64,000 bases of DNA from Longispora fulva (GTDB taxonomy: Bacteria > Actinomycetota > Actinomycetes > Mycobacteriales > Micromonosporaceae). This document shows, in pieces, positions 8,672-22,211 of the stretch; the stretch's first letter is position 1, and the number at the start of each line of letters is the position of its first letter. The notes beneath the pieces were generated by a model. That model did no database searches. It was not told where the DNA came from and saw only the letters and a list, made by a program, of their open reading frames with translations. The position numbers and the translations under genes are program-made. The DNA lies in NCBI RefSeq assembly GCF_015751905.1, contig NZ_JADOUF010000001.1:7130001-7194000 (forward strand), given 5' to 3'.

Positions 8672-9055
8672 ATGTCCAGCACCACCCGCACCAGCAAGCT
8701 CACCCCGCACGCCGTCACCGACGAGGACGCGCTGAACCGGATCTGCGCCATCATCAACCGCGACACCACCGCCGCCGACGCCCGCGCCGCCGTCGCCCAG
8801 ATCATCGCCAGCACCGGCCGCCCGGTCCTCCCCGTCTGCCAGATCACCGCCCGGGTCGAGCCCGGCGAGTACGAACTGCCGTGCGCGATCGTGGACACCG
8901 GCGTCCAGGGCGTCACCGTCACCGTCCACCAATCCCTGATCCGCTCCACCGGCATCAACATCGAGATCGACACCGACAGCGACGCAGAGCTGGAGACACT
9001 GACCGTGCAGCTCAACGACGGTTTGATCTTCGGAAAAGAGCAGCACACCAATTGA
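8672..9055 (+). CDS. Hypothetical protein, 127 residues (first gene of leading block)
   Basis: Not recognised. ATG 8672 is preceded by GGGAGGAA at 8,657-8,664. The N-terminal half is helical (EDALNRICAIINRDTTAADARAAVAQII). The C-terminal half is beta-rich and acidic (TDSDAELETLTVQLNDG), which might suggest an SSB- or DNA-mimic-like small protein; that is only a guess. Its stop codon overlaps the -35 box of leader module A. Confidence 0.6.
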   Translation: MSSTTRTSKLTPHAVTDEDALNRICAIINRDTTAADARAAVAQIIASTGRPVLPVCQITARVEPGEYELPCAIVDTGVQGVTVTVHQSLIRSTGINIEIDTDSDAELETLTVQLNDGLIFGKEQHTN

Positions 9056-9132
9056 CTTTCACGCTTAAGTAGGGTATCTTTGAATTGTTCGAGGGAACGG
9101 GACGGCAACCCGCCCCCCGAGCACCAGGAATC
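9052..9132 (+). promoter_or_regulatory. Leader module A (promoter plus hairpin)
   Basis: TTGACT (9,052-9,057), a 17-base spacer and TATCTT (9,075-9,080) form a sigma70-type promoter. The leader has the hairpin CGGG-ACGGCAA-CCCG inside an outer G/C stem, then CAGGAATC. It drives the ParB-like gene. Confidence 0.8.
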
Positions 9133-9157
9133 ACCACCAACTATCGAAGGGACCAGC

Positions 9158-11011
9158 GTGTCCACGATCGCCATCGAGCACGACACCGCCGAGCAGGTCG
9201 ACACCGACCAGCTCGTCACCGACTCCGACGCCCCGGCCGCCGAGCAGGCCGAGGCGCTGCCCGGCCGCTACGAGCTGATCGACGTCAAGAACGTGATTGT
9301 CAACAAGGCCAACATCCGGGAGCAGGCCACCGCCAATGCCGGGATCGTCGCCAACATGAAGGAGGAGGGCGCGGCCGGGCTGATCCAGCCGATCGTCGTG
9401 GTTGAGATCGAGCCCAAGAAGTACTCGCTGATCGCAGGTGAGGGGCGGCTGCTGTCGGCGCGCGACGCCGGGCTGAAGAAGATCCCCGCGATCATCCGCG
9501 AGGATCTGGGGCTGCGCCGCGACCAGATCGCCTCCATGCTCAAGGAGAACGTCCACCGCACCGATCTGACCTCAGCCGAGGTCGCAGCCGGGATCGAGCA
9601 GTTGCAGATCGAGGGCCTGTCCGTCACCGGCATCATGAAGAAGACCGGCATCAAGCGGGCCAAGGTCGCCCAGGCGCTGACGGTGGCCGGGATGGGCGAG
9701 GCGAAGACCGCCGTCGCCGGACTCGACATCCCCCAGGCCGCGACCGCCGCCGCGTTCGCCGACGACCCCAAGGCACTGGCCCGCCTGGTCGAGGCCGCCA
9801 AGGAGGGGCCGGACGCCTTCAAGAAGAAGGTCATCGCCGAGACCCAGACCAAGGAGTCCGCCGCCAAGCTCGCCGCCCGCACCGCCGAGTTGACCGCCGC
9901 CAAGGTCACCCTGCTGGCCAAGCAGCCCGACACCTACAACACCCCCGTCCAGCGGGTGAACGCGCTCGCCCACGACGGCAAGGCCCTCACCGCCGCCGAC
10001 CACGCCACATGCCCCGGTCACGCCGCGTACCTGACCATCAGGTCATGGGACGGGGCGGTGATGGAGGACTACTACTGCACCGACTGGAAGGCCAACAAGC
10101 ACAAGCAGCGCAACCAGCAGGGCGCGTTCTCGGTCACCGGCCCCCTGACTGACAAGGAGAAGGCCGCGCGTAAAGAGGTGCGCGAGAACAACGCCGCGAT
10201 GCGCGTGGCCATCGCGTTCCGCCACGACTGGATCCGCGACAACCTGATGACCCGCAAGACCCTGCCCAAGGGCGCGGCCCTGCTGATCGCGGAACTGATG
10301 GTCACCGAGGCGCACCTGATCGGCCGCTGGATGCGCGACCCCGCCCGCCCCCTGCTCGCGGAGTTCATGGGCCAGGAGACGGGAAGCAAGGTCGAGGTCA
10401 AGGCCACCACCGACGCCCGGTGCCACATCTACAGCCTCGCCGTCATCGCCGCCGCCCACGAGCGCGAACTCGGCCCCCGGAGTTGGGACGGAGCACCCAA
10501 CACCACCGCCGCCCGCTGGCTGACGTTCCTCGGCTCGCTCGGCTACCCGATCGACCCGATCGAACAGAAGATCATCGACAAGGTCACCGCCGACGCCAAG
10601 AAGAAGGCCAAGGCCGAAGCCAAGGCGGCGGCGAAGGCCGAGGCCAAGACCGAGCCCATGCAGGAGTCCGCCGTCCCGGACGTTCCCGCCGAGCCCGAGC
10701 CGCAGGAGCCCGACGCCGACCCGGCCGACCCCAGCGAGGCGACCACCCCGGCCGGGGAGCCGCACGGCTACGCGCTCGGCGGGTACGTCCTGGTCGAGGT
10801 GGACGACGCCTGGCACGTCATCGACCCCGACGGCGACCACATCATGACCAGCACCACCCCCACCGACGCCGCCACGGCCGCCGACTGGGCCACCGCCCGG
10901 CTCGCCGACCTGCGCGGCCTGACCGCCACCTGGTACCCCGACCACACCGCCGACCACGGCCACCACCTGCGCGCCATCACCACCACAACCCCCGAACTCG
11001 TGGCCGCCTGA
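9158..11011 (+). CDS. ParB/RepB-like partition-domain protein
   Basis: 617 residues from GTG 9158 (GAAGGG upstream). About residues 40-115 form a ParB N-terminal nucleotide/parS-clamp domain, seen in ANIREQ..., LIQPIVV and the IAGEGRLLSARDAG box that corresponds to GERR. About 120-180 hold the ParB helix-turn-helix (TDLTSAEVAAGIEQL ... VTGIMKKTG). The long C-terminus is unusual: an Ala/Lys-rich helix near 470-500 and an acidic Pro-rich linker. ParB-like proteins in conjugative elements can act in partition, as nucleases or as leading-region factors. No ParA partner lies next to it. It is followed by two strong hairpins. Confidence 0.8.
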   Translation: MSTIAIEHDTAEQVDTDQLVTDSDAPAAEQAEALPGRYELIDVKNVIVNKANIREQATANAGIVANMKEEGAAGLIQPIVVVEIEPKKYSLIAGEGRLLSARDAGLKKIPAIIREDLGLRRDQIASMLKENVHRTDLTSAEVAAGIEQLQIEGLSVTGIMKKTGIKRAKVAQALTVAGMGEAKTAVAGLDIPQAATAAAFADDPKALARLVEAAKEGPDAFKKKVIAETQTKESAAKLAARTAELTAAKVTLLAKQPDTYNTPVQRVNALAHDGKALTAADHATCPGHAAYLTIRSWDGAVMEDYYCTDWKANKHKQRNQQGAFSVTGPLTDKEKAARKEVRENNAAMRVAIAFRHDWIRDNLMTRKTLPKGAALLIAELMVTEAHLIGRWMRDPARPLLAEFMGQETGSKVEVKATTDARCHIYSLAVIAAAHERELGPRSWDGAPNTTAARWLTFLGSLGYPIDPIEQKIIDKVTADAKKKAKAEAKAAAKAEAKTEPMQESAVPDVPAEPEPQEPDADPADPSEATTPAGEPHGYALGGYVLVEVDDAWHVIDPDGDHIMTSTTPTDAATAADWATARLADLRGLTATWYPDHTADHGHHLRAITTTTPELVAA

Positions 11012-11017
11012 CCCCAG

Positions 11018-11045
11018 GGTGCCGCCCGGCCGACCGGGCGGCACC
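11018..11045. terminator. GC-rich hairpin after the ParB-like gene
   Basis: Perfect 12-bp arms GGTGCCGCCCGG and CCGGGCGGCACC with loop CCGA, 7 bases after the stop codon. No U-tract, as is common for actinobacterial terminators. Confidence 0.65.
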
Positions 11046-11067
11046 ATCCACAAAAGACCACAACCAC

Positions 11068-11104
11068 GCGAGCCCTGCCGGGCGCACCAACCGGCAGGGC
11101 TCGC
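11068..11104. terminator. Second GC-rich hairpin
   Basis: Perfect 14-bp arms GCGAGCCCTGCCGG and CCGGCAGGGCTCGC with a 9-base loop. It stands in tandem with the hairpin at 11,018-11,045. Confidence 0.65.
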
Positions 11105-11230
11105 CTCTTCACTGCCGCCACCAGGGCGACAGGCGAGAAGAGCGAAGATCAAAAGCATGTCCTCGCCGGACGGGCAGGCCAACAGGATGGCCGGGGCACC
11201 TGCCTCAACACCAGGTGATCTGTGGGTCCG

Positions 11231-11395
11231 GTTTCTCCTTGTGCCATCCCGCCGCCTGACCCGGAGGGTCTACCAGACCGCGCGCCCGACCAGAAGGACA
11301 AGCCGCTTCGCGGTCGCCGCAAGCGGCGATCCTTCAGCCCGGACACCCGGCCTGGTAGATCAAAGATCAGACGACGGGATGGCACAAGGCGAAAC
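11231..11395. repeat. 165-bp nested palindromic element
   Basis: Nested inverted repeats. The outer 24-bp arms 11,231-11,254 and 11,372-11,395 differ at 2 positions (core CCTTGTGCCATCCCG). Next come CTGA/TCAG (11,256-11,259 with 11,367-11,370), then GGTCTACCAGACCG with CGGCCTGGTAGATC (11,267-11,280 with 11,348-11,361). Innermost are AAGGA..CCGCTT with AAGCGG..TCCTT (11,294-11,308 with 11,321-11,334). The whole 165 bases can fold into one long branched or bulged stem. It could be a structured RNA, a MITE-like remnant or a DNA cruciform (single-strand origin type). Confidence 0.7.
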
Positions 11396-11461
11396 ACTCA
11401 GGTGAGAGCCAACCCCGACCCGCGCCAGGCCCCGGCCAGCTCACCGCCGACCAAAAAATCT

Positions 11462-11526
11462 TTGACTTTCGCGCATAAGTAGGGTATCTTTAGATGTGTA
11501 AGGGGAACCGGGGCCGACCAGGAATC
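11462..11526 (+). promoter_or_regulatory. Leader module B (shortened hairpin)
   Basis: TTGACT (11,462-11,467), 17 bases, TATCTT (11,475-11,480), then GGGGAACCGGGGCC and CCAGGAATC. The ACGGCAA loop is missing, so this copy is truncated. It drives the SSB operon. Confidence 0.75.
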
Positions 11527-11543
11527 ACACCAAGGAGTACGAC

Positions 11544-11930
11544 GTGAGCGACATCGAAGTCAGGATCACCGGCAACATCGCCAACGAGCCCGACCTACGG
11601 ATCTCCAAGACCGCCAAGTCCGTGATCAAGCTCCGGATCATGGTCAACAAGCGCGTCCCGGACGGCAATGGCGGCTGGAAGGACGGCAAGGCCACCGCCT
11701 ACAACATCACCGCCTGGGACAAGCTCGCCGAGAACATCGCCCTGCGCCTGCGCAAGGGCCAGCGGGTGACCGTCGTCGCCAACGACCTGGAGCCCCGCTA
11801 CTGGGTCGACAAGGAGGGCGTCACGCACGCCGAGATCGAGGTGACCGCCCAGGAGGTCTCGCTGTCGATGAAGTTCAACCAGCGCACCGCCGACGCCCCC
11901 GCCGAGCGCGAGCCCGCCGCCGCGTTCTGA
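11544..11930 (+). CDS. ssb: Single-stranded DNA-binding protein
   Basis: 128 residues from GTG 11544 with AAGGAG upstream. It is an OB-fold SSB: an N-terminal strand VRITGNIANEPDLRI, the central FRLAV-like IKLRIMVNKR, then TAYNITAWDKLAENIALRLRKGQRVTVV matching the 'W...LAENV...KG.RV.V.G' region of SSB. The C-terminus is short and lacks the acidic DDDIPF-type tail of the housekeeping SSB, so partner recruitment may differ. SSBs are typical leading-region genes of conjugative elements, where they coat the incoming strand. Confidence 0.85.
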   Translation: MSDIEVRITGNIANEPDLRISKTAKSVIKLRIMVNKRVPDGNGGWKDGKATAYNITAWDKLAENIALRLRKGQRVTVVANDLEPRYWVDKEGVTHAEIEVTAQEVSLSMKFNQRTADAPAEREPAAAF

Positions 11931-11942
11931 CCCACCCGACCA

Positions 11943-11968
11943 GGGCGGCGGCACTCCTGCCGCCGCCC
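11943..11968. terminator. Hairpin after ssb
   Basis: GGGCGGCGGCA and TGCCGCCGCCC with loop CTCC. It lies between ssb and the next small gene, so it is either an attenuator or an mRNA-stabilising stem. Confidence 0.55.
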
Positions 11969-11986
11969 CACCCCAAGGAGCTTGAC

Positions 11987-12187
11987 GTGTCGCTGTACGA
12001 CGACCAGGACCACAACCCGCCCACCCCCGCCGTCGTCGCCTCCATGCGCGACCTGGCCGAGCGCGAGGAGGCCGCCGCCCGGCTGCGCCGGGCGCACGCC
12101 GCCGGGATCGACCCCGCCGTCTGGATCATGTCCACCGATGCCGAGCTTGACGCGCTGATTGCCGAAGCCGAGCGGGAGGCACAGTGA
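11987..12187 (+). CDS. Small helical protein, 66 residues
   Basis: Not recognised. Starts at GTG 11987 with AAGGAG 8 bases upstream and overlaps the next gene by GTGA. Mostly charged helix (MRDLAEREEAAARLRRAHAAG), ending in an acidic stretch. It is probably co-transcribed with ssb from module B. A role as partner of ssb or of the next gene is possible but unsupported. Confidence 0.6.
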   Translation: MSLYDDQDHNPPTPAVVASMRDLAEREEAAARLRRAHAAGIDPAVWIMSTDAELDALIAEAEREAQ

Positions 12188-12573
12188 AAATCCTTGTCAT
12201 GCGCGGGTACACCGCCGACACCGACTGTCCACTGTGCAGCGGAACGGGGAAGCCCGAGCTGTACACGTGCCCCTGCGTGACCGAGGTCGCCGACATCGTG
12301 ATCCGGCACCGGGCCAGCGGAGCGACCGAACACCACCAGTACACCCGCTGGGGATGTATCGCCCGGCTCTGGAACCCCAGCGGCATCCGCGTGGCAGCTC
12401 TACGCCCGGACGGCCGGGCCATGCTCGCCCACATCCGCATCGACGCCGCACGCAGCTGGCTCGTGCACATCCTGGAACCCGAACGTCAGGCCCCGGTCAT
12501 CGTGACCGGGGACTACCTCGACGCGGAAGAACTCGCGCTGCAAGCCGCCGGTTTGACTTTCCCTCATAAGTAG
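12184..12573 (+). CDS. Small protein with CxxC motifs, 129 residues
   Basis: Not recognised. GTG 12184 overlaps the previous stop. An N-terminal CPLCSGTGKPELYTCPC stretch (about residues 15-31) looks like a zinc knuckle with a DnaJ-like CxxCxGxG half. The rest is alpha/beta with a final helix LDAEELALQAAG. The last codons and stop are read from the promoter of leader module C (the stop lies in the spacer between -35 and -10), so the two are physically fused. Confidence 0.6.
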   Translation: MKILVMRGYTADTDCPLCSGTGKPELYTCPCVTEVADIVIRHRASGATEHHQYTRWGCIARLWNPSGIRVAALRPDGRAMLAHIRIDAARSWLVHILEPERQAPVIVTGDYLDAEELALQAAGLTFPHK

Positions 12574-12630
12574 GGTATCTTTAAATACATCAGGGGGACG
12601 GACGGCAACCCGGAACCCGACCAGGAATCC
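12553..12630 (+). promoter_or_regulatory. Leader module C
   Basis: TTGACT (12,553-12,558), 17-base spacer, TATCTT (12,576-12,581). Hairpin CGG-ACGGCAAC-CCG flanked by GA on both sides, then CCAGGAATCC. It overlaps the 3' end of the preceding gene. Confidence 0.8.
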
Positions 12631-12647
12631 GACGACAAGGACGCAGC

Positions 12648-13067
12648 GTGAACAACGAAACCCCCGCGGTCCACGACTGGGACTCGCCGACCGAGGTCAG
12701 CCCGGTCCCGACCGAACTGGACCCGCCCGGAGCCGCCCTCGCCCGCGACATCGGACACCGGCTGGCCACCCGGATGCGCACCGAGCCCGAGAGCATCACC
12801 GTCGAGACCACGACCTGTGTCTGGGGCACGAACCTCCGATACACCCTGACCTACCCGCGCTACGGTCGACAGCACCCGCACGTGATCACCCTCTACCACT
12901 TCGCCAACTCCACTGTCGGCCCCGACCCGAGGTCCGTCCTGTACGTCGACGGCCACCAGGTCCAGTACGACCACGGGTTTCACCGGCCACTCGCCCAGGT
13001 CATGGCCGAAGTCGCATGGCTCCAGATCCTGGAGACCCGCCGCCAGCGCATCCGCGCCGCAGACTGA
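12648..13067 (+). CDS. Hypothetical protein, 139 residues
   Basis: Not recognised. GTG 12648 with AAGGA about 8 bases upstream, right behind module C. The acidic N-terminus (about 1-30) is followed by a beta-rich middle (TVETTTCVWGTNLRYTLTYPRYG) and a C-terminal amphipathic helix. No metal motif or membrane segment. Its place among ssb and ardC-like genes suggests an establishment or anti-defence role, which is inference from position only. Confidence 0.6.
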   Translation: MNNETPAVHDWDSPTEVSPVPTELDPPGAALARDIGHRLATRMRTEPESITVETTTCVWGTNLRYTLTYPRYGRQHPHVITLYHFANSTVGPDPRSVLYVDGHQVQYDHGFHRPLAQVMAEVAWLQILETRRQRIRAAD

Positions 13068-13074
13068 ACCACCC

Positions 13075-13100
13075 CGGGCGGCGGCACCCGCCGCCGCCCG
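13075..13100. terminator. GC-rich hairpin
   Basis: CGGGCGGCGGC and GCCGCCGCCCG around ACCC, directly after the 12,648 gene. Confidence 0.55.
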
Positions 13101-13156
13101 ACCCTCCCGCAGCCATCAGGGCCAGCGACCCAGCTCAACACCCTAGGAGAATGCAG

Positions 13157-13546
13157 ATGTCCATCTACGTGGCCAACGAGTGGGTCTCACCGTCCGGCGC
13201 GCGCTGGAACTCCGCCCCTGCTGACGCGGTGTGGTGCGCGATGATCATTTTCGAGCGCGCCGACGGAGAGACCGACTACGCCTACGGGTACACCGACAGC
13301 GAGGATGAGCCCGCCGACACCGACGCCCTACTCCCCGAAGGCGCGACCCTCCTGGAGACCGAGGTGAACCGCTGCCGACTCCTGGATGGCGAGACGTGGC
13401 AGTACCTCACCAAGGACGGCCAGGACATCACGAGCGACCCCGTGATGAACATGGATGACGTCGAAGAGAAACGCGTCTGGAACCCCACCGGACTGGTCGC
13501 GGCATGGCGACGCCACGGCGAGACCCGCTGGGAGCGCACCGCGTAG
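13157..13546 (+). CDS. Hypothetical protein, 129 residues
   Basis: Not recognised. ATG 13157 is chosen over ATG 13151 because TAGGAGA then sits at proper spacing. Strongly acidic in the middle (TDSEDEPADTDALLPEGATLLETE) with several tryptophans (NEWVS, ETWQYL, VAAWRR). Acidic, small and leading-region encoded is the profile of DNA-mimic anti-restriction proteins, but no homology is claimed. Confidence 0.6.
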   Translation: MSIYVANEWVSPSGARWNSAPADAVWCAMIIFERADGETDYAYGYTDSEDEPADTDALLPEGATLLETEVNRCRLLDGETWQYLTKDGQDITSDPVMNMDDVEEKRVWNPTGLVAAWRRHGETRWERTA

Positions 13547-13557
13547 GGCAACTCCGT

Positions 13558-13636
13558 TTGACTTTCACATTTAAGTAGGGTATCTTTAGATTGTTCGAGG
13601 GGAACGGGACGGCAACCCGAACCCCGCCAGGAATCC
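13558..13636 (+). promoter_or_regulatory. Leader module D
   Basis: TTGACT (13,558-13,563), 17-base spacer, TATCTT (13,581-13,586). Full hairpin GGGG-AA-CGGG-ACGGCAA-CCCG-AA-CCCC, then GCCAGGAATCC. This is one of the best-formed copies. Confidence 0.85.
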
Positions 13637-13652
13637 ACTAGGGAGCGAACTG

Positions 13653-13916
13653 ATGACCTGGTTTGACGACACGTTCATCGACCCGGACAAGCGCCGTGAG
13701 GCCATCGCGCTGATCAACGAGAAGGGTCAGGATCACCTGAAGTACGCCGGAGGTGATCACGGATTCGGGCTGTTCATGCTCGCGATCGACTACGCGTGCC
13801 GGAAGCGGCTCGGCGTGTCCTGCTTCGACCTCGCGGACTACTGCTACCGCGACGCCTACGACGACGGCCTCACGCCCGTCCAGACCCTCAAGCTCGCGCT
13901 CGCGGCCGAGTTCTAG
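13653..13916 (+). CDS. Hypothetical protein, 87 residues
   Basis: Not recognised. ATG 13653 preceded by TAGGGAG. A small acidic helical protein with aromatic residues (MTWFDD, DLADYCYRDAYDDG). No motif found. It is expressed alone from module D and followed by a hairpin, so it forms a one-gene transcription unit. Confidence 0.6.
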   Translation: MTWFDDTFIDPDKRREAIALINEKGQDHLKYAGGDHGFGLFMLAIDYACRKRLGVSCFDLADYCYRDAYDDGLTPVQTLKLALAAEF

Positions 13917-13926
13917 CCCCGCCTCT

Positions 13927-13956
13927 CCGGTGCCCAGGCTTGGGGCTGGGCACCGG
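13927..13956. terminator. Hairpin after the 13,653 gene
   Basis: CCGGTGCCCAG and CTGGGCACCGG with an 8-base loop, 10 bases after the stop. Confidence 0.6.
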
Positions 13957-14001
13957 ACTGCGGGGGCGAAGCCGAGGGCGCATCGAGTGGCCCGCCAGGA
14001 A

Positions 14002-14080
14002 TTGACTTTCAGGCTCTAGTAGGGTATCTTTAGATTGTTCGAGGGGAACGGGACGGCAACCCGGACCCCGCCCAGGAATC
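14002..14080 (+). promoter_or_regulatory. Leader module E
   Basis: TTGACT (14,002-14,007), 17-base spacer, TATCTT (14,025-14,030). Hairpin GGGG-AA-CGGG-ACGGCAA-CCCG-GA-CCCC, then CCCAGGAATC. Confidence 0.85.
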
Positions 14081-14099
14081 CAAGAAGGAGCGCACCTCC

Positions 14100-14492
14100 G
14101 TGACGCAGCTCGACCTCTCCGCCCTGGCCGGCACCAAGGGCCTCATTACGTACATCTTCAAGTCCGCCACTCTGGGTGACTGCGCCAACGGGGGGATCTC
14201 CTCCCGGTGCGACCAGGTCACGATCGTTGGCGTGGTGGACGGACGCAACCCCGGCAGGCCGACCGTGCATCGGCTGGCCGATGACTCCCAGGTCTTCGCC
14301 CCCGCCGAGGACCGGCCCGCCGTCGTGTTGTTCGCCCGAGCCCGCTACGGCCGGATCCTGGTACCTGCCACCCCCGACCTCCTGTCGCGCTGGATGGCTG
14401 GCGGGACCTACGTCGCCGCCCACGACTCGCGGCTGAGCAACCTGTGGGGCGGGTATCACGCGCTCCCGCTGCACGACCGCACCGAGCACTAG
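14100..14492 (+). CDS. Hypothetical protein, 130 residues
   Basis: Not recognised. GTG 14100 with AAGGAG upstream. Alpha/beta composition, two cysteines (GDCANG, SRCDQ) and a beta-rich core (VTIVGVVDGRNPG, RPAVVLFARARYGRILV). No signal peptide. It is probably transcribed together with the following 155-residue gene, with a strong hairpin between them. Confidence 0.6.
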   Translation: MTQLDLSALAGTKGLITYIFKSATLGDCANGGISSRCDQVTIVGVVDGRNPGRPTVHRLADDSQVFAPAEDRPAVVLFARARYGRILVPATPDLLSRWMAGGTYVAAHDSRLSNLWGGYHALPLHDRTEH

Positions 14493-14499
14493 CACCCCA

Positions 14500-14524
14500 C
14501 CCGGGGCGGCACCGCCGCCCCGGG
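14500..14524. terminator. Hairpin between two small genes
   Basis: CCCGGGGCGGC and GCCGCCCCGGG around ACC. The downstream gene has no module of its own, so this stem may stabilise or attenuate rather than terminate. Confidence 0.5.
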
Positions 14525-14562
14525 CCCCAACCTCGGACACCACCCGAATCAGGAGCACGAAT

Positions 14563-15030
14563 ATGGAGAACAGCCCGATCTACGTCGAGGTCACCCGGCG
14601 ACAGACCATGATCATCCGGGAGATTCGCGACCACGCCGCCCGCTACGCCTATCCCCACAGCGGCGCGGGTCTCAACGACCCCGTCCGCTACCTCGCGGAC
14701 GGCCACATTCCCCACTGCACCCACGAAGAGCGGGAGTTCATCAAGACCTATATCCGCCTGCACCCGGAAGTCATCGACCGCCACCCCCTCACCATCGCCG
14801 AACTCGAACAGCGCGACGCCCGCGACCGTGAGCGCGCCGGACAGGTCGCCGAGCACGCCCGGGAGCTGTTCAACGTCGGCGAGTTCACCGCAGCCCTCTA
14901 CCTGATCGACCGCGCCGAGCACCTGGACCCCGGAAGCTTCGCGCGGTGGGACAGGCTCCGCACGCTGATCTGCACAGCCCGGGAGCTGGACAAGAACTGT
15001 TCCGACAGCTTGATTTTCGCCTCTAAGTAG
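14563..15030 (+). CDS. Hypothetical protein, 155 residues
   Basis: Not recognised. ATG 14563 with AGGAG at good distance. All-helical and charged; the middle has HCTHEEREFIK and a helix LEQRDARDRERAGQVAEHARELF, followed by a TPR-like pair (GEFTAALYLIDRAEHLDPGSF). The last residues are read from the promoter of module F (the stop codon lies in its spacer). Confidence 0.6.
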   Translation: MENSPIYVEVTRRQTMIIREIRDHAARYAYPHSGAGLNDPVRYLADGHIPHCTHEEREFIKTYIRLHPEVIDRHPLTIAELEQRDARDRERAGQVAEHARELFNVGEFTAALYLIDRAEHLDPGSFARWDRLRTLICTARELDKNCSDSLIFASK

Positions 15031-15090
15031 GGTATCTTTGACTGGTCGGGGCGAGGGACGGCGACCCGAGCCCCGACGGCCAGGAATCCC
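15010..15090 (+). promoter_or_regulatory. Leader module F
   Basis: TTGATT (15,010-15,015), 17-base spacer, TATCTT (15,033-15,038). The outer stem is GTCGGGGC/GCCCCGAC, internal loop GA/GA, inner stem GGG/CCC, loop ACGGCGA, then CCAGGAATCC. The outer stem sequence differs from modules D, E and H but still pairs, which is covariation. Confidence 0.85.
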
Positions 15091-15110
15091 AGCGACACCA
15101 AGGAGACGAG

Positions 15111-15392
15111 ATGTCCAAGGACGAAGCGCGGATGCGCAACGGCACCTACGCCGGGCTGTTCTACTCGACCACCGACGGGGCGTGGATGATGGACGCCGGA
15201 TGGCTCCCCGAGGACGTGGAGCCCGTCGCGCTCAGCGAGATCACAGACGCCGCCGACTACAACAGCGCCCGGGAGTGGGGCACCGCCACGCTGGCCGAGA
15301 CCGGTCGGCCCGCAGGCTTCTGGATGCCCGAGTGCCGCAACGGCCAGGCCAACCCCGCCCCGTCGTTCCAGTGGATCGAGGCCCGCGCGTGA
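15111..15392 (+). CDS. Hypothetical protein, 93 residues
   Basis: Not recognised. ATG 15111 with AAGGAGA upstream. Acidic, with several Trp and Tyr (YAGLFYSTTDGAWMMDAGWLP) and one cysteine. The last codon overlaps the next gene (GTGA), so the pair is translationally coupled and driven by module F. Confidence 0.6.
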   Translation: MSKDEARMRNGTYAGLFYSTTDGAWMMDAGWLPEDVEPVALSEITDAADYNSAREWGTATLAETGRPAGFWMPECRNGQANPAPSFQWIEARA

Positions 15393-15937
15393 CGACCCTG
15401 ACCGCCCCGGCGATCACCGAGACCCGCGACAGCTTCCCCAATGCCGAGCGCCCCCGCTACTGGCCGCAGGAGGAAGCCCACTACCGCAGCGCCCTGGAGC
15501 CCGGCGACATCGTCTGTGACGACACCGGTACCCGGTGGCGGATCACCGCCTACGACAACGCCTTCAGTCACCTCACCGCCGGGCGAATCGCCTACCTGGA
15601 GGCGACGCCCGACCGGCACGCCGCAGCGTCCGGCCGCGCGCAGGCCAGCCGCACCGCATGGGAGAACACCTTGACAGCAGCTAACGACGACAGCGCCGAC
15701 CAGTTCCAGGCCGTGGCCCTGGCGTTCGAGCTGGCCGCCATCCTGGAGGACAAGGCCGCCCGACTGGAAGGGCTCGACCCGTCCACGCTGTGGGAAGAGA
15801 TCCTGTGCCTGACCGAAGTCATCCGGGCCGGGGACGACAGCGCCCCCGAGGCGGGGCGCGATCTGGCGGAGAAGGTGTACACCCTCAATGAGTGGATCAT
15901 GACCGACGGGAAGCACCCTCGACAGTGGACGTGGTGA
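15389..15937 (+). CDS. Hypothetical protein, 182 residues
   Basis: Not recognised. GTG 15389 overlaps the stop of the previous gene. The N-terminal half resembles a small beta-barrel-like segment (EPGDIVCDDTGTRWRITAYDN). The C-terminal half is helical and acidic (FELAAILEDKAARLEGLDPSTLWEEILCLTEV). No catalytic motif seen. Coupled to the 93-residue gene. Confidence 0.6.
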   Translation: MTTLTAPAITETRDSFPNAERPRYWPQEEAHYRSALEPGDIVCDDTGTRWRITAYDNAFSHLTAGRIAYLEATPDRHAAASGRAQASRTAWENTLTAANDDSADQFQAVALAFELAAILEDKAARLEGLDPSTLWEEILCLTEVIRAGDDSAPEAGRDLAEKVYTLNEWIMTDGKHPRQWTW

Positions 15938-15948
15938 ACCGATCTCGC

Positions 15949-16027
15949 TTGACTTTCGCGTAGAAGTAGGGTATCTTTAGATCTGCGAGGGGGTCCGGTC
16001 GGCAACCCGGACCCTCGGCCAGGAATC
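15949..16027 (+). promoter_or_regulatory. Leader module G
   Basis: TTGACT (15,949-15,954), 17-base spacer, TATCTT (15,972-15,977). The stem CGAGGG..TCCGG / CCGGACCCTCG carries a two-base bulge; loop TCGGCAA, then CCAGGAATC. The stem differs from the other copies but pairing is kept. Confidence 0.8.
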
Positions 16028-16054
16028 GACACCACGAAGACGGGAACGAGCGAC

Positions 16055-16351
16055 ATGACCAGAGTGACCATCGTTGACGTACGCGGCATGTTCGGCCGCG
16101 CCGCGCGGGCCGCCGCCAGCATCGGGCTGGACACCACCGGCTGGTACCTCGAAGGCGGATCCCAGGTGCAGGGGGTGGCCTGGAGGATGCACACTCACGG
16201 GTCAGCCACGCCCGTGGCGCTGGAGAACGCGAGGATCGGGAGCACAGCGCGGGAGGCGTATGCGGCCTTGCACATGCTGGCGCTCGCCTGGGAGGCGGCG
16301 GGCACGGTCCAGGCCGAGCGCGCCCCCGAGCGCGTGCTGATCGCAGCCTGA
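16055..16351 (+). CDS. Hypothetical protein, 98 residues
   Basis: Not recognised. ATG 16055 behind module G; the ribosome site is weak (GGGAACGAG). An alpha/beta protein beginning MTRVTIVDVRGMFGRAARAAAS and ending in an amphipathic helix. A single-gene unit between module G and a 16-bp palindrome. Confidence 0.55.
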   Translation: MTRVTIVDVRGMFGRAARAAASIGLDTTGWYLEGGSQVQGVAWRMHTHGSATPVALENARIGSTAREAYAALHMLALAWEAAGTVQAERAPERVLIAA

Positions 16352-16354
16352 CCA

Positions 16355-16386
16355 CCTCGGGGGCCGCCGATCGGCGGCCCCCGAGG
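16355..16386. terminator. 16-bp perfect palindrome
   Basis: Arms 16,355-16,370 and 16,371-16,386 (CCTCGGGGGCCGCCGA and its complement) with no spacer, 4 bases after a stop codon. Confidence 0.6.
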
Positions 16387-16401
16387 ATCTGAGTCCAGGG
16401 T

Positions 16402-16480
16402 TTGACTTTCACTGCCAAGTAGGGTATCTTTTAATAGTTCGAGGGGAACGGGACGGCAACCCGGACCCCGCCAGGAATCC
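16402..16480 (+). promoter_or_regulatory. Leader module H
   Basis: TTGACT (16,402-16,407), 17-base spacer, TATCTT (16,425-16,430). Hairpin GGGG-AA-CGGG-ACGGCAA-CCCG-GA-CCCC, then GCCAGGAATCC. It drives the ArdC-like gene. Confidence 0.85.
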
Positions 16481-16496
16481 AAGCAAGGAGAAGACG

Positions 16497-17471
16497 ATGG
16501 CGAAGCAGAAGAAGGCTCCGGCGACCGAGGAGCAGAAAGCCGAGTGGGCCGAGGCGCGCAAGGCGAAGGTCGCGGCTCTCAAGGACCGCAGCGACGAAGC
16601 GGTCGCGGCGCTGGCCGAGCCGAAGGCGTGGGCCGCGATGCTGCACGGCATGGGGTGCTTCGGCCGCCGGTACTCGCTCCGTAACGTCCTGCTGATCATC
16701 ACGCAGCTTCCGGGCGCCACGAACGTCAACGGCTTCTGGACCTGGAAGGCGCAGGGGCGCGACGTGCGCAAGGGCCAGCACGGCGCGGCGATCCTCGCCG
16801 CGATGCGCGGGACGAAGAGCACCGAAGGCGAGGCCCAGGAGCAGGCGAAGCCCGCCGCGGAGCAGGCGACGCCCGCCGAGGGCGCGCAGGGCGAGCGTAA
16901 GGGGGTGCGCGGCTTCAAGCCCGAAACCGTGTTCGACATCAGCCAGACCGCCCCGACCAACCCGGACGCGCCGGACCTCTGCCCGCCGGTGGTCGACGCC
17001 GACCGGGCCGCCATCGTCCACTGGCCCGCGATCGTTGCCCGCATCGCCACCCACGGCTACGACGTCGAGACCTGGACCGAGGGTGACGACGAGGAGGACG
17101 GCGACCAGGGCGACGGCTACGAGATCGACACCGACAGCCGCACCGTGCGGCTCACCACCAACGGCGACCTCGCCGACGCGCGCCAGGCCGTGCACGCGCT
17201 GGCCTGCCTGGAACTCGGCCAGCTCGACACCGGCGAGGGCTACGAGGCAGCGGTGGTCGACTCGGTCGCCCACATCGTCATGAGCGGACTCAAGCTCACC
17301 GCCGACGCCCCGGACCCCGAGGACTTCGACGCGATCGGCGAAGCCCTCAGCGACACCGACCCGGAAACGATCATCGAAGCCGTGGAGACCGTCGCCCAGG
17401 CCGCGCGGGACATCCTCGACGCCATCGACCCGATGCCCGAGCCCGCCGCCCGGCCCACCCGCAAGAGCTGA
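16497..17471 (+). CDS. ArdC-like antirestriction protein
   Basis: 324 residues, ATG 16497 with AAGGAG. The region around 60-105 (SLRNVLLIITQLP, then VNGFWTWKAQGRDVRKGQHG and AAI) is the ssDNA-binding domain of ArdC: 'N.lLI..Q.P.AT.V.GF..W...GR.V.KG..G'. ArdC proteins protect incoming DNA from type I restriction and some Cas nucleases. The C-terminal metallopeptidase-like half of ArdC is present in outline, but the HExxH zinc site is not visible (VHALACLELG stands there), so any protease activity is doubtful. It is the most telling leading-region marker here with ssb. Confidence 0.7.
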   Translation: MAKQKKAPATEEQKAEWAEARKAKVAALKDRSDEAVAALAEPKAWAAMLHGMGCFGRRYSLRNVLLIITQLPGATNVNGFWTWKAQGRDVRKGQHGAAILAAMRGTKSTEGEAQEQAKPAAEQATPAEGAQGERKGVRGFKPETVFDISQTAPTNPDAPDLCPPVVDADRAAIVHWPAIVARIATHGYDVETWTEGDDEEDGDQGDGYEIDTDSRTVRLTTNGDLADARQAVHALACLELGQLDTGEGYEAAVVDSVAHIVMSGLKLTADAPDPEDFDAIGEALSDTDPETIIEAVETVAQAARDILDAIDPMPEPAARPTRKS

Positions 17472-17477
17472 CACCCC

Positions 17478-17503
17478 GGGTGCCCGGCCACGGCCGGGCA
17501 CCC
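17478..17503. terminator. Hairpin after the ArdC-like gene
   Basis: GGGTGCCCGGCC and GGCCGGGCACCC with a 2-base loop, 7 bases after the stop. Confidence 0.6.
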
Positions 17504-17556
17504 ACCAGCCAAGCCCCACCCATCCCGCAGCTCAGCACCCGTACCGAGGAGTCCCG

Positions 17557-17877
17557 ATGTTGTCCCCCCACCGTTCCGGCAGCACCGTCCGCTACCACGG
17601 CAGCCTCACCGACCAGCACGGCCCGTACCTGATCGACGGCTCTTGCGACTGCGCGGACTGCGACGAACGGTGGGAGATCGTGTACGCCAACTGGCGCTAC
17701 TACGGAGGCGACGAGCCGACCACCACCTACCGGCTCGTCAACTACCGCACCGGTGCCGCCCTGGAGTGCGTCAACCACCACTCCGTCACCCCGGTCGAGC
17801 GGGACCAGGTCGCCGCGGAGGTGTGGCCCCGGGAGTACCTGAACCACCGACGTGCCGCCGCGCCCGCGCACTCATGA
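17557..17877 (+). CDS. Cysteine-containing small protein, 106 residues
   Basis: Not recognised. ATG 17557 with CGAGGAG upstream. A CDCADCDERWEIVYANW segment (about residues 30-46) has three closely spaced cysteines and may bind zinc with ECVNHH further on. It has no own leader module and probably reads through from module H. Confidence 0.55.
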   Translation: MLSPHRSGSTVRYHGSLTDQHGPYLIDGSCDCADCDERWEIVYANWRYYGGDEPTTTYRLVNYRTGAALECVNHHSVTPVERDQVAAEVWPREYLNHRRAAAPAHS

Positions 17878-18062
17878 CGCCGCCCCGGTCCGGCCCCCGT
17901 GGTCCGGCCTGGGGAGCCCGTCACGCTGACCGGCCCGGCTGCGCATCGAGCGCGCCGGACCGGGCGAGGGGCGCTCCGCGCCGCCCCCTCGCCCTCCCCG
18001 GGCATCCCGTCCCCGCCCACCGGATCCACCTCACGGACACCCCAGAGAAAGGCCAACCGACT

Positions 18063-18509
18063 GTGAACCCCACCGACCGGAAGACCGACGCCGCGATGGC
18101 CGCCCTCCTGCGGACCATCGCGCCCAACACCACCTCGCGCCACCTGCTCTACCCGATCACCACCGACCGCACCGGGCAGCTCACCGCCGAGCCCCGCCCC
18201 CTCGGCGGACCGCGCGACACCACTCCGCTCTCGCTACTCCTCGGCGGTCTGCGGATCGGCCTCACCCGCTTCCCGTCCGCCGCGGCCGGCATCGACGGCT
18301 ACGCCGTCGCCCGCGCAGGCGCCTCCAGCGTCAGAGCTGCCGACCGCAGCGGCCGACTCCACATCGCCCGCTACACACGCGGCGTGAACGAGCCGGAGGT
18401 GGAGCACCACGGCGACCCCCAGGGCCTCCGCCGCCTCCCGTGGGAGAGAGCACTTGTCGCACTCGCCCAGGCCCTCCCCGCCCCCATCGGTGTTTACTTT
18501 CGAGAATAA
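18063..18509 (+). CDS. Hypothetical protein, 148 residues
   Basis: Not recognised. GTG 18063 with AGAAAGG upstream; the longer open frame before it lacks codon bias. Basic overall, with helical ends. Its stop codon lies inside the promoter of module I (between its -35 and -10). A 185-base stretch before it shows nothing recognisable. Confidence 0.5.
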   Translation: MNPTDRKTDAAMAALLRTIAPNTTSRHLLYPITTDRTGQLTAEPRPLGGPRDTTPLSLLLGGLRIGLTRFPSAAAGIDGYAVARAGASSVRAADRSGRLHIARYTRGVNEPEVEHHGDPQGLRRLPWERALVALAQALPAPIGVYFRE

Positions 18510-18590
18510 GTAGGGTATCTTTAAATGGTGAGGGCGGGGATCCCCCCGAATCCGGGACCGGATCCCCGCTCCAGTCCAGCCAGGCAAGAC
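18493..18590 (+). promoter_or_regulatory. Leader module I (divergent hairpin)
   Basis: TTTACT (18,493-18,498), 17-base spacer, TATCTT (18,516-18,521). The stem GCGGGGATCC/GGATCCCCGC encloses a different loop that contains CCC-CGAATCC-GGG; the ACGGCAA loop is absent and the tail reads CAGGCAAG. The promoter is conserved while the leader has changed. Confidence 0.7.
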
Positions 18591-18600
18591 GGAGGAACTG

Positions 18601-18942
18601 ATGACCACCTGGAAAATCCTCAAGCAGGACGCGCTGCCGGACGGCCGCCTGGTCGAGCTCCGCTATCGCGAGTTCGGCGCCGGCCGCACCAAGGTCCGCA
18701 AGTGGGAGATCTACGTCGGCAACTTCCGCGTCGACTACGCGGTCAACGAGACCGATGCCGAGCACAACTACCACCTCGCGCTGAGCGGGAGCCGCCTCAA
18801 CGGCCGCAGCGAACCCGTCCTGACCAGCTGCCCCGACGAGTGCCCCGAATGCGGCATCGATCTCAAGGGCGACGGATACCCGCTCAACCACAAGACCGAC
18901 GAGGGCAACTTGTGCCTGTTCGCTTGGGTCAACTGGATCTGA
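18601..18942 (+). CDS. Small protein with CxxxCxxC, 113 residues
   Basis: Not recognised. ATG 18601 with GGAGGAA. The N-terminal two thirds are beta-rich (VELRYREFGAGRTKVRKWEIYVGN). A CPDECPECGIDL segment (about 79-90) plus a later cysteine suggests a zinc-binding knuckle. A single-gene unit between module I and a hairpin. Confidence 0.6.
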   Translation: MTTWKILKQDALPDGRLVELRYREFGAGRTKVRKWEIYVGNFRVDYAVNETDAEHNYHLALSGSRLNGRSEPVLTSCPDECPECGIDLKGDGYPLNHKTDEGNLCLFAWVNWI

Positions 18943-18961
18943 GTGGTTGCACCAGGCTCAC

Positions 18962-18990
18962 GGTGGGGCCCGGCGAGCGCGGGCCCCACC
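18962..18990. terminator. Hairpin after the 18,601 gene
   Basis: GGTGGGGCCCG and CGGGCCCCACC with a 7-base loop, 20 bases after the stop. Confidence 0.6.
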
Positions 18991-19007
18991 TTCCCGACGC
19001 AAGGTGC

Positions 19008-19087
19008 GTCAGCTTCTCTGAGATAAAGGGTATCTATAAATCGCTGGAGTGAGGGACGGCAACCCGAACCCCGGCCACCAGGAATCA
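19008..19087 (+). promoter_or_regulatory. Leader module J (weak -35)
   Basis: The -10 is TATCTA (19,031-19,036), but 17 bases upstream GTCAGC replaces TTGACT. The hairpin is kept: outer CTGGAGT/ACCCCGG, internal GA/GA, GGG-ACGGCAA-CCC, then CCAGGAATC. It precedes the methylase-like gene. Confidence 0.7.
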
Positions 19088-20067: not shown

Positions 20068-20304
20068 ACACCAGGAGGGCCCACCATGATCACCCCGACC
20101 GACGCCGGTCACAGTGAGACGCTGTCGCGTGGACCCCGGCCACGCTCACCCGGTAAAGTCACAGGCGACTCCAGCACGTTCGCGGCCCCGGTCGCCTTCG
20201 TTGGTGGATTCCTGGAAGGCGGCCGGGACGTTGCCGGCCCACAGCGGCAACGCGGTGGGTTTCGTTCCGGCCGCCGCTTACATCAGGCCCCGGGGGTGTA
20301 CGGC

Positions 20305-20982
20305 ATGCAGACGCGAACGGTCAACGGCCACCAGGCCACCGACCGCGACGGCGCCGCCGAACTCCTCGACCGCTCCCGCCGCTGGATCGACCTCAGCGCC
20401 AGCCCGAAGAAGCGGCCTGAGACCGGCTTCCCTGAACCGTGCGGAAAAGAAGACGGCCGCGACTGGTACCCGGTCGCTGACCTCACCGCCTACCGGGCCA
20501 AGCTCGACACCCCGAAAGAGAAAAACACGCCAGCGCGAGCTCCGCGCTCCGGCGACCCCAACGAACTGATCCCCGCGGTCGTATTCCGGGAATGGCTCGG
20601 AATCGAGCAAGGCACCTGGAAGCGCTACGTCAAGGACAGCGAAGCCGAGTGGGACGCCGGTCACGACGGGTACCTTCCGCTGTACGACGACAAGCAGCCC
20701 GGCAAGCGCGGCTGGATCTACTACTGGAAGCGCCACCGGGCCAACGAGTGGATCGACAGCCGGCCCGGCAAGGAAGGGGCGACCGGCCGCCCGGTCGGGG
20801 CGACCAAGGCCGCCGCGACCGCGACGCTCGCTGACGCCGAAGCGGCTGTGCGTGCAGCAGCCGACCGCGGCGAGGCGATGTCCGGCACGAAACTCGCCGA
20901 AGCGCTCGGTGTCCCGCTCAACCGCGCCTACGTCCTGCTCCGCCAGATCCGGGCCGCCGACACCGACGTCTCCGCCAGCTGA
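20305..20982 (+). CDS. HTH-type DNA-binding protein
   Basis: 225 residues from ATG 20305. The frame is open from ATG 20086, which has a perfect AGGAGG, but third-position GC is poor until about 20,300 and inverted repeats lie there (GTTGCCG/CGGCAAC near 20,230-20,252). I therefore prefer the later start; a 298-residue product is the alternative. The N-terminal part (DRDGAAELLDRSRRWIDL) looks like a DNA-binding-domain helix pair, and the C-terminus (GTKLAEALGVPLNRAYVLLRQI) like a winged helix. It could be a replication or transfer regulator next to oriT. Confidence 0.5.
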   Translation: MQTRTVNGHQATDRDGAAELLDRSRRWIDLSASPKKRPETGFPEPCGKEDGRDWYPVADLTAYRAKLDTPKEKNTPARAPRSGDPNELIPAVVFREWLGIEQGTWKRYVKDSEAEWDAGHDGYLPLYDDKQPGKRGWIYYWKRHRANEWIDSRPGKEGATGRPVGATKAAATATLADAEAAVRAAADRGEAMSGTKLAEALGVPLNRAYVLLRQIRAADTDVSAS

Positions 20983-21007
20983 CCGTCATACCGAAGTCCG
21001 GGACCAC

Positions 21008-21041
21008 CAGGGCGCCGCTGTCACTCGACCGCGGCGCCCTG
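21008..21041. terminator. Bidirectional hairpin between convergent genes
   Basis: CAGGGCGCCGC and GCGGCGCCCTG with a 12-base loop, between the rightward HTH gene and the leftward coiled-coil gene (it overlaps the end of the latter). Confidence 0.6.
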
Positions 21042-21545
21042 ACTCTGTCCCCAGCTGGTGAGTCCTACCTGAGGCGCGTGCACCTCGACCACCACGTCCT
21101 CCGCCGGCGCCGGGCCGCGTTGTTCCGGAACACGCCTAGCCGGCTTGGCACGCTTGCGTGGCGCCCGCACCGGCAGCGCGTACTGCAGGTCCAGCAGCGT
21201 CGGCTCGGTCCACGCAGCCGCCGCGGCGTCGAACGCCTCCGCGTACGCCGCTTCCGCCTCCCCGGCCTGCCGCTGCGCATCCTCCTCCAGCAGCGCGCCC
21301 TGACGTCGCGCTTCCGCGACCAGGGCGGCGCCCCGCTGGCGTGCTTCCTCGACCAGCTCACGGGTCCGCACCGCCGCCGCGTCCAGGGCGCTGGCCGCGT
21401 CGTTGCGGGCCACCGCGGCGAGCCGCAGGCTCCCGATCAGCGGAATCCGGTTCTCCATCAGCTGCAGAGCTTCACGCTCGGCGTCTCTGGCCTCCTTGCG
21501 TTGCTGTCCGGCTGTCAGCCGCCGGGTCGCTGAATTCTGTGCCAT
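21021..21545 (-). CDS. Coiled-coil protein near oriT, 174 residues
   Basis: Not recognised at family level. ATG 21545 is taken as start; the frame extends further without codon bias. Residues about 10-110 are a long charged Ala/Arg/Glu helix (QQRKEARDAEREALQLMEN, EEARQRGAALVAEARRQGA), probably a coiled coil, followed by a basic segment (RAPRKRAKPARRVPEQ). It is the only leftward gene between 8.6 and 25.9 kb and flanks the putative oriT, so a relaxosome role is plausible but unproven. Confidence 0.55.
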   Translation of the reverse strand: MAQNSATRRLTAGQQRKEARDAEREALQLMENRIPLIGSLRLAAVARNDAASALDAAAVRTRELVEEARQRGAALVAEARRQGALLEEDAQRQAGEAEAAYAEAFDAAAAAWTEPTLLDLQYALPVRAPRKRAKPARRVPEQRGPAPAEDVVVEVHAPQVGLTSWGQSQGAAVE

Positions 21546-21596
21546 GACCCGACGATAAGCCGCACACGGCCAAGGGCGCCGCATTCGCGGGAGCAA

Positions 21597-21764
21597 GATA
21601 TCCCATTCCTAAGTAAAGCTCTGGCAGCTTCGCCGCCTGCGCTTTAACTTTGGCAATGGAAATTCATCCGACCGGGCGCGGTCGGATCAGAAATGCAACA
21701 CCGAAATGCCAAAGCAATTGCATCACCCGTGAAACACCTTAGTACAAAACAATAGGGGGACCAG
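21597..21764. other. Candidate origin of transfer (oriT)
   Basis: An AT-richer intergenic patch between the coiled-coil gene and mobC. It has nested inverted repeats: CTTTGGCA (21,648-21,655) with TGCCAAAG (21,707-21,714), enclosing ATCCGACC (21,666-21,673) with GGTCGGAT (21,680-21,687). GCAATTGC follows at 21,714-21,721. MOB-type oriTs usually lie directly upstream of mobC/relaxase genes and contain such repeats. The nick site cannot be placed. Confidence 0.5.
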
Positions 21765-22211
21765 GTGGCCGACCAGCCCGAGGAGGACGCGCCGAACAAC
21801 CACGCCATCTACTTGCGGCACCGCCGACACCGCCCGCCCGGCAAGGGCCGCATGCACGATCCGGGCGGGCGAACCGTGAACCTGGCGCTCGACGGCAAGG
21901 AGTACGCGGCGGTATTGGCAGCCGCCAAACGAGCCAAACTCCGGCCCACGAGCTGGGTCGCGGCCGTCGCGGTCTCCTTCGCCCAGGACACCACGCCGCC
22001 CATGCCGTCGCCGGGCAAGGACCTGCTCGGCGAACTCAACCAGGCCAGGACGCAACTCGGCCGGTACGGCAACAACGTCAACCAGGCCGTCAAGCAACTG
22101 CACGCCACCGGCGAGGCCCCGCCCTGGCTAACCGACGCCGTCCGCACGTGCCAGAACACGATCGCGCTCATCGACCAGCTCGTGGACGAACTGCGCAGGC
22201 GAGTGCGATGA
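21765..22211 (+). CDS. MobC-like relaxosome accessory protein
   Basis: 148 residues from GTG 21765. After a basic N-terminus, residues about 35-75 form a ribbon-helix-helix-like DNA-binding part (RTVNLALDGKEYAAVLAAA). The MobC signature follows: LNQARTQLGRYGNNVNQAVK (compare 'L..iG.NlNQ.ar'). MobC proteins help melt oriT and load the relaxase. The stop overlaps the relaxase ATG (ATGA), so the pair is coupled. It lies directly downstream of the oriT candidate. Confidence 0.75.
   Translation: MADQPEEDAPNNHAIYLRHRRHRPPGKGRMHDPGGRTVNLALDGKEYAAVLAAAKRAKLRPTSWVAAVAVSFAQDTTPPMPSPGKDLLGELNQARTQLGRYGNNVNQAVKQLHATGEAPPWLTDAVRTCQNTIALIDQLVDELRRRVR

Follow-up and report, generated by a model that had tools for sequence, protein, structure and literature searches.

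The window analysed here, a stretch of 64,000 nucleotides of the Longispora fulva genome (contig NZ_JADOUF010000001.1, positions 7,130,001 to 7,194,000), carries ten copies of a short unit, made up of a promoter-like core and, in most copies, a leader predicted to fold as an RNA hairpin, before a series of mutually unrelated genes in the apparent leading region of a conjugative element. On balance we consider it probable that each unit joins a promoter to an RNA leader recognised in trans, and that together they co-ordinate the establishment regulon of the element. The repetition of the unit, its confinement to one block and one strand, its shared architecture in other elements and, in Streptomyces, the selection for paired arms in the sense RNA were computed directly.

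The promoter core (TTGACT with at most one mismatch, 17 bases, TATCTT) has nine matches in the window, all on the forward strand and none on the reverse, at the starts of modules 1 to 9 (Table 1, which also gives the -35 variants at 15010 and 18493). The first-pass annotation had listed ten copies, one of them with a degenerate -35; nine lie exactly where it placed them, and the tenth, at 19008, is indeed degenerate in its -35 but also differs in its -10, which reads TATCTA rather than TATCTT. Hexamers near consensus and the 17-base spacer make nine of the ten copies promoter-like by sequence. The 14-mer AGTAGGGTATCTTT occurs nine times exactly in the window, and still nine times when up to three mismatches are allowed, a setting at which 0.34 matches would be expected and the maximum in 100 shuffles was 2; with at most one mismatch it is found nine times in the whole genome of 8,676,660 bases, always within the block and never on the opposite strand, and exact matches were absent from the 150 relatives searched (0/150). 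The part of the spacer beside the -10 is conserved in the window (AAGTAGGG), and upstream of the -35 there is no conserved block in the ten window copies or in 16 copies of the Streptomyces sp. NBC_01244 plasmid NZ_CP108490.1.

The hairpin begins about 10 bases past the -10 and, as had been claimed, is present in eight of the ten copies, the exceptions being 11462, which retains a collapsed remnant, and 18493, which has a different and longer hairpin. The 7-base loop ACGGCRA proposed at the same time holds for seven of these eight (ACGGCAA in six, ACGGCGA at 15010) but not for 15949, whose loop region is the 8-nucleotide TCGGCAAC; at 12553 the minimum-energy structure differs from the hairpin described. 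The box CCAGGAATC is present in nine of the ten copies, 11462 included and 18493 excepted, and ends 17–27 bases short of the start codon, from which a distinct Shine-Dalgarno-like sequence separates it. The suggestion that this RNA belongs to no named family agrees with Rfam 15, which gave no match at the gathering score in the window or in the loci of three relatives (L161, L059, L041); at a loose threshold two below-gathering matches overlap a module, and none above gathering does.

That the pairing itself is maintained is seen in the Streptomyces relatives. In 24 aligned copies from NZ_CP108490.1 and Streptomyces sp. WZ.A104 (leaving out the diverged L161 copies 1452 and 32802 and two ambiguous basal pairs), whole 3' halves were permuted and eight pairs counted: pairing-preserving double changes numbered 138 against 41.8 under permutation, and paired cells 182 against 175.4, each with 0/5,000 permutations. 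The 192 cells at these pairs comprise 168 Watson-Crick, 14 G-U, 2 A-C and 8 other combinations and, since G-U in the sense transcript corresponds to A-C on the opposite strand, the excess of G-U over A-C indicates that it is the sense RNA that is preserved. A second set, from seven further Streptomyces plasmids, retains 25 copies after the exclusion of five S. niveus copies by their spacing (18 bases); here the stems vary (GGAG/CTCC replacing GGGG/CCCC) while the loop and box are near constant, with inner stem plus loop GGGAACGGCACCC identical in 21/25 and box CCACCAAC present in 23/25. Its 21 distinct arm pairs fold at -19.23 kcal/mol when native and at -16.76 when swapped (0/20,000), against -18.55 and -17.79 for the antisense (825/20,000). 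Among the 16 copies of NZ_CP108490.1 the spacer is far less conserved than the block from the -10 through the hairpin, and the box is conserved less strictly. Across 36 copies of seven families the native arms reach -16.0 kcal/mol, chimeras between families -13.0 and chimeras within a family -15.4, the antisense gap being smaller (-16.0 against -14.2). Permuting the arms gave 0/20,000 for all families together, p = 0.00015 for 20 Streptomyces copies and 0.05 for Catenuloplanes; the all-family permutation mixes families, so that it reveals family-specific arms and not change inside a family.

In the Streptomyces sets, the pairing of the sense RNA is under selection. The first-pass annotation had asserted as much from the window, an inference that was right but under-supported, as the arm co-adaptation of the Streptomyces relatives sustains it and the window copies alone do not (p = 0.17). 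The covariation check it recommended was carried out with statistics other than R-scape, and both covariation and copies in related elements were found, with no Rfam match.

These related elements extend over several actinobacteria. In Catenuloplanes japonicus (NZ_JNXY01000004) five copies with a promoter and one hairpin without it lie around a relative of the ParB-like gene; the five have a TGGACA-like -35, 17 bases, TATATT and a GGCAA-loop hairpin, mostly followed by a CAGGAA-like box. The hairpin lacking a recognisable promoter (L041, 3302) is the one before the Catenuloplanes ParB-like gene. A second contig of this genome has one copy (31.5 bits with covariance model R1), and Asanoa and one further genome of the same family have single copies. 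That family is Micromonosporaceae, which we take to be common to the window genome, Catenuloplanes and Asanoa; the same-family relatives with ParB matches include NZ_JNXY01000004 and NZ_BONE01000119 (Asanoa siamensis). When the seven elements with a ParB-like gene were compared, promoter and hairpin stood directly before that gene in five and the hairpin alone in one; the closest ParB relative (G124, 41%) showed no such module.

In Streptomyces, WZ.A104 has four copies. In NZ_CP108490.1 a regular expression finds 18 copies within 40 kb, every one on the forward strand and none on the reverse, and four extra copies lie farther upstream, one of them immediately before the ParB-like gene of this plasmid. 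This stretch encodes DUF932, ArdA and SSB, and leads into a MobF relaxase gene; a Mom-family DNA-modification protein (L184, 17208-18110) also lies amid the copies, which fits the anti-restriction content. When promoter and GGC[AG]-loop hairpin were sought together, under stricter terms than those of the regular expression, 19 forward and 0 reverse matches appeared in the 186.4 kb of this plasmid that were covered, with none across the 99.8 kb from 86600 to 186400; outside the module blocks of two other plasmids (L179, L180, L181; 59.9 kb) the same scan gave two, both on the reverse strand, which are taken as chance. A smaller module type occurs at 37 places in 11 Streptomyces plasmid records, NZ_CP108490.1 among them, for example upstream of mobC and a mobilisation gene in NZ_CP109448.1 and NZ_CP108636.1; the DNA of NZ_CP108077.1 and NZ_CP108641.1 was left out of closer analysis.

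Wider searches used a window-type covariance model (R2) and a Streptomyces-type model (R3). Among 300 genomes of the family, 78 have an R2 match at E <= 0.05, including the window's own genome and that of Catenuloplanes; 29 of these loci were inspected (L132-L160), with some of the reverse-strand places turned to the other strand, and a promoter was seen at L132, already in the model, and at L135 after strand reversal, a copy that separate scans recovered as well. The majority of the 78 are probably chance. Among 394 genomes of the class, six have an R3 match at E <= 0.01, one being a four-copy cluster on a 42,834-base contig; the single matches in the other five looked unrelated. The strict window pattern was absent from genome contigs, one window module and one Catenuloplanes module had no match in plasmids, and one Streptomyces module had none in phages. 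Eight viral-contig stretches with the window promoter pattern had no repeated module in the DNA examined and were taken as chance, and the upstream repeats of Cellulomonas, Cellulosimicrobium, Antribacter and Actinomycetospora elements are of unrelated sequence and were excluded from the family. These repeats lie in the leading regions of the four elements (L018, 19731-24489; L019, 18200-23939; L052; L115), each with modules of its own; actinobacteria may have multiple types of leader for establishment genes.

The genes behind the window modules encode ParB_N, SSB, ArdC-like, N6 methylase-like and small unknown proteins, and after the block come MobC, a relaxase of the MobA/VirD2 type and, further along, a coupling protein of the VirD4 type (gene calls were made with a home-made script). 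Every module is directed toward the relaxase gene. From this gene content and order, and from the common direction of the modules, the block appears to be the leading region of an element that conjugates through a type IV secretion system (T4SS), probably the first part to enter a new host, with the origin of transfer (oriT) presumably located between 20,983 and 21,764.

In such a leading region each copy would be one unit of the establishment regulon. A promoter of the vegetative-sigma type, with its 17-base spacer in the window, would produce an mRNA that starts upstream of the hairpin. Roughly the first 45 bases of its 5' untranslated leader would fold into an outer stem, a small, mostly purine internal loop, a GGG/CCC inner stem and a GGC[AG] loop, followed by a single-stranded box (CCAGGAAUC in the window, CCACCAAC or CACGAACC in Streptomyces). 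This leader would be an element-specific recognition site read in trans, most likely by a factor that the element encodes: the near constancy of loop and box suggests a partner, and the confinement of the motif to such elements points to one that they encode themselves. SSB, anti-restriction and other early genes would thus be expressed jointly and briefly after entry. Of the three roles first offered, an RNA switch, a binding site for an element protein, or a means of early expression, the link to early genes, like the structured leader itself, found support mainly in the related elements; a small-molecule switch is unlikely, because there is one short hairpin with no terminator behind it (by eye) and many unrelated genes are served, and a binding site combined with co-ordinated early expression, as predicted roles, fits best. 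A more specific and doubtful version supposes that the leader, of which an element may have up to about 20, is the target of a protein encoded by the element, whose availability shifts as single-stranded DNA (ssDNA) comes in; SSB or the leading-region helix-turn-helix (HTH) protein, for example, could be titrated by the entering strand, so that establishment genes would be on after arrival and then off post-transcriptionally. If true, this would be an RNA counterpart of the Frpo promoters considered below.

As for the partner, a protein with HTH segments is encoded in the leading block of 9/11 Streptomyces records or loci (L161, L163, L164, L174, L185-L189), and L047, L176 and the window have a distant homologue (a single hhalign comparison gave 87.8% across 176 columns), which makes 12/18 of the module-bearing loci tested; no member was found in the four leading regions whose modules are of another type (L018, L019, L052, L115). 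The structure model of the window protein is of low confidence (pLDDT 60.3, pTM 0.36). This protein is a candidate for a regulator acting through the leader or for a parallel control at the DNA level. SSB was discarded as a universal partner, not being found in the small Streptomyces plasmids, and the gaps in SSB and ParB-like proteins mean that no single named partner is universal.

Several points weigh against the proposed RNA-read regulon. Transcription, folding, binding and timing stand on computation or inference, and oriT and the polarity of transfer are deduced from gene order alone. The arm swap confined to the eight window copies is the non-significant result given above, and when these are joined by the copy of L047, a ParB-relative locus, the covariation score is equalled in 51/500 shuffles. 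The 36 copies of seven families, a set from which the window copies at 11462 and 18493 were left out, have weak minimum free energy z-scores, averaging -0.77 for the sense and -0.28 for the antisense strand, and in an earlier Streptomyces alignment of 19 rows, shuffled pair by pair, the score was equalled in 11/500 and the number of double-change pairs in 175/500. No member of the HTH family was found in the partial loci L051, L057, L059, L162, L177 and L178 (the membership of L162 being doubtful), and by BLASTP the HTH protein of the window shows no resemblance to those of Streptomyces; with tblastn (E 1e-4), neither SSB nor a ParB-like protein was found in the small Streptomyces plasmids, of which some were partly covered, and no SSB in L051 or L059. 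Among 27 ParB-relative loci (L040-L064, L077, L115), searched with R1 and mostly R2, the module is known only in L041 and L051 (one element), L047, L057 and L059, and in L059 it turned up through upstream repeats and not through the covariance models. R2 fails on the Catenuloplanes (C4) and WZ.A104 copies (best 8.8 bits), R3 matches no window copy at E <= 0.01, and the kinship of the subfamilies stands on common architecture and not on model score. A single common origin, unproven by score, is only likely, because R2 and R3 miss each other's subfamilies.

The same data could be explained by a regulon of the p576/Reg type, controlled at transcription only, in which a DNA repressor encoded by the element would silence the copies in the donor, naked incoming DNA would fire until the repressor accumulates, and the hairpin would be incidental. 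EGeRS2 of p576 offers a precedent in the part of PMC8708921 drawn on here, and the spacer by the -10 is conserved like an operator in the window, Catenuloplanes and the small Streptomyces plasmids; the recurrent HTH protein of the leading regions may itself act on promoter DNA, which is why we keep this account as possible, if rather unlikely. It does not lead one to expect the co-adaptation of the arms or the wobble bias of the sense strand, and in NZ_CP108490.1 spacer and upstream DNA are far less conserved than the hairpin. Alternatively, a generic 5' hairpin could stabilise the mRNA or aid translation without a specific partner, as would suit a structure presumably near the 5' end of the transcript, with the Shine-Dalgarno sequence downstream and outside it; yet a stabiliser needs neither a near-constant loop nor a near-constant unpaired box, and we regard this explanation as improbable.

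An ssDNA promoter of the Frpo type, in which the transferred strand folds and so rebuilds the -35 and -10, would be at home in the same setting of SSB and anti-restriction genes directed to the relaxase. On the presumed transferred strand, however, the -10 is paired at 0.25 in the 24 Streptomyces copies and 0.38 in eight window copies (-35, 0.41) against 0.57 in 60 random stretches of the block, a weak comparison, because its -35 indices for Streptomyces fell in the wrong place, its -10 indices were off by one, and the consensus fold of that strand is nearly empty. Nor was an inverted copy that might supply the complementary strand found in the whole genome, the window or the 186.4 kb covered of NZ_CP108490.1. 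As the transferred strand apparently leaves the promoter unfolded, this mechanism is very improbable.

Table 1. Coordinates of the modules and associated features in the window (ORF, open reading frame).
Feature	Position	Strand	Description
Module 1	9052..9132	+	TTGACT-17-TATCTT, ACGGCAA-loop hairpin, CCAGGAATC box; precedes ParB-like gene 9158-11011
Module 2	11462..11526	+	promoter and CCAGGAATC box, collapsed hairpin; precedes SSB gene 11544-11930
Module 3	12553..12629	+	promoter, hairpin other than the minimum-energy structure, box; precedes ORF 12648-13067
Module 4	13558..13635	+	promoter, GGGG-AA-CGGG/CCCG-AA-CCCC hairpin, box; precedes ORF 13653-13916 (DUF5419 slightly under cut-off)
Module 5	14002..14080	+	promoter, hairpin, box; precedes ORF 14100-14492
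Module 6	15010..15088	+	TTGATT promoter, hairpin GTCGGGGC-GA-GGG/CCC-GA-GCCCCGAC, ACGGCGA loop, box; precedes ORF 15111-15392
Module 7	15949..16027	+	promoter, bulged hairpin with 8-nucleotide loop TCGGCAAC, box; precedes ORF 16055-16351
Module 8	16402..16479	+	promoter, hairpin, box; precedes ArdC-like gene 16497-17471 (ArdcN above cut-off)
Module 9	18493..18600	+	TTTACT promoter, different longer hairpin, no box; precedes ORF 18601-18942
Module 10	19008..19086	+	degenerate promoter (TATCTA -10), GA/GA internal-loop hairpin, box; precedes N6-methylase-like gene 19106-19984
Protein with HTH-like segments in leading block	20296..20982	+	candidate regulator acting in trans; Pfam match weak, structure model of low confidence
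Gap before mobC, candidate oriT region	20983..21764	.	putative
MobC-like gene 21765-22211 and MobA/VirD2-type relaxase gene 22208-23791	21765..23791	+	
T4SS coupling protein (TraG/VirD4 type)	30511..32262	-	marks the element as conjugative

Some further observations concern the surroundings of the modules. The candidate oriT gap holds inverted repeats, CAGGGCGCCGCTGT at 21008 with a near complement at 21028 and, by eye, TTTGGCA...TGCCAAA closer to mobC. Between the ParB-like and SSB genes (11238-11390) there is a large imperfect inverted repeat of about 150 bases, with a weak below-gathering Rfam match, which may be a single-strand origin or some other structure formed by ssDNA. An asparagine-synthase gene (28080-29885, reverse strand) adjoins the coupling-protein gene.

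Establishment-gene regulatory sequences are already known; the variant seen here has an RNA motif for which no description was found. In the open-access full text searched (most subscription papers and all preprints being outside its scope), such a leader is undescribed in actinobacterial elements, and there is no account for actinobacteria of a brief switch-on of leading-region genes after conjugation. The similar folded RNAs before comparable genes of Streptomyces plasmids point to an undescribed, RNA-based joint switch-on of the genes by which a mobile element settles in. A leader common to ten to twenty genes marks a presumed establishment regulon, with dozens of unnamed small proteins that could counter host defence, and gives an experimental handle on how establishment genes are controlled.

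Among known systems, as represented in the portions of the cited sources used here, the brief switch-on after conjugation is described for Frpo plasmids (PMC9849209; PMC11541004) and p576, and left open for pLS20 (PMC8708921). With Frpo/ssi the modules share a position before SSB and anti-restriction genes in the leading region, here assigned by gene order (PMC9849209; PMC11541004), and the window gene order, by itself, would fit a transferred strand serving as template; they differ in that the promoter apparently lies outside the fold and the preserved strand is the mRNA sense. The SAS/ESAS of Cluster K mycobacteriophages resemble them in being short sequences, repeated 11-19 times in a mobile element of actinobacteria and placed in front of unrelated genes (PMC3203893), but SAS occupies the ribosome-binding site, whereas the window unit is upstream of the Shine-Dalgarno sequence with its box ending at the distance given above, and ESAS has little support for RNA pairing (PMC3203893), in contrast to the co-adapting arms of the Streptomyces relatives. 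STAXI is likewise a structured motif near SSB, integrase and antirestriction genes, formed of tandem pseudoknots (PMC2864571) and set apart by that description from a single hairpin per gene. The modules also have a likeness in organisation with EGeRS1 and EGeRS2, the establishment-gene regulatory sequences of the Bacillus pLS20-family plasmids, conserved units repeated before several establishment operons, ardC among them, of which EGeRS2 has strong promoters and EGeRS1 is predicted to fold (PMC8708921). However, EGeRS1 has 400-600 bp with multiple inverted repeats and its tested copy is promoterless, against about 80 bases with a promoter-like core here; the repressor of EGeRS2, under Reg control, is a ribbon-helix-helix protein acting at dual heptamers just upstream of the -35 (PMC8708921), where the window and NZ_CP108490.1 have no conserved block, and the leading-region candidate here is of the HTH type. 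The unit described here is actinobacterial and has a short, covarying RNA hairpin and a box behind its promoter-like core.

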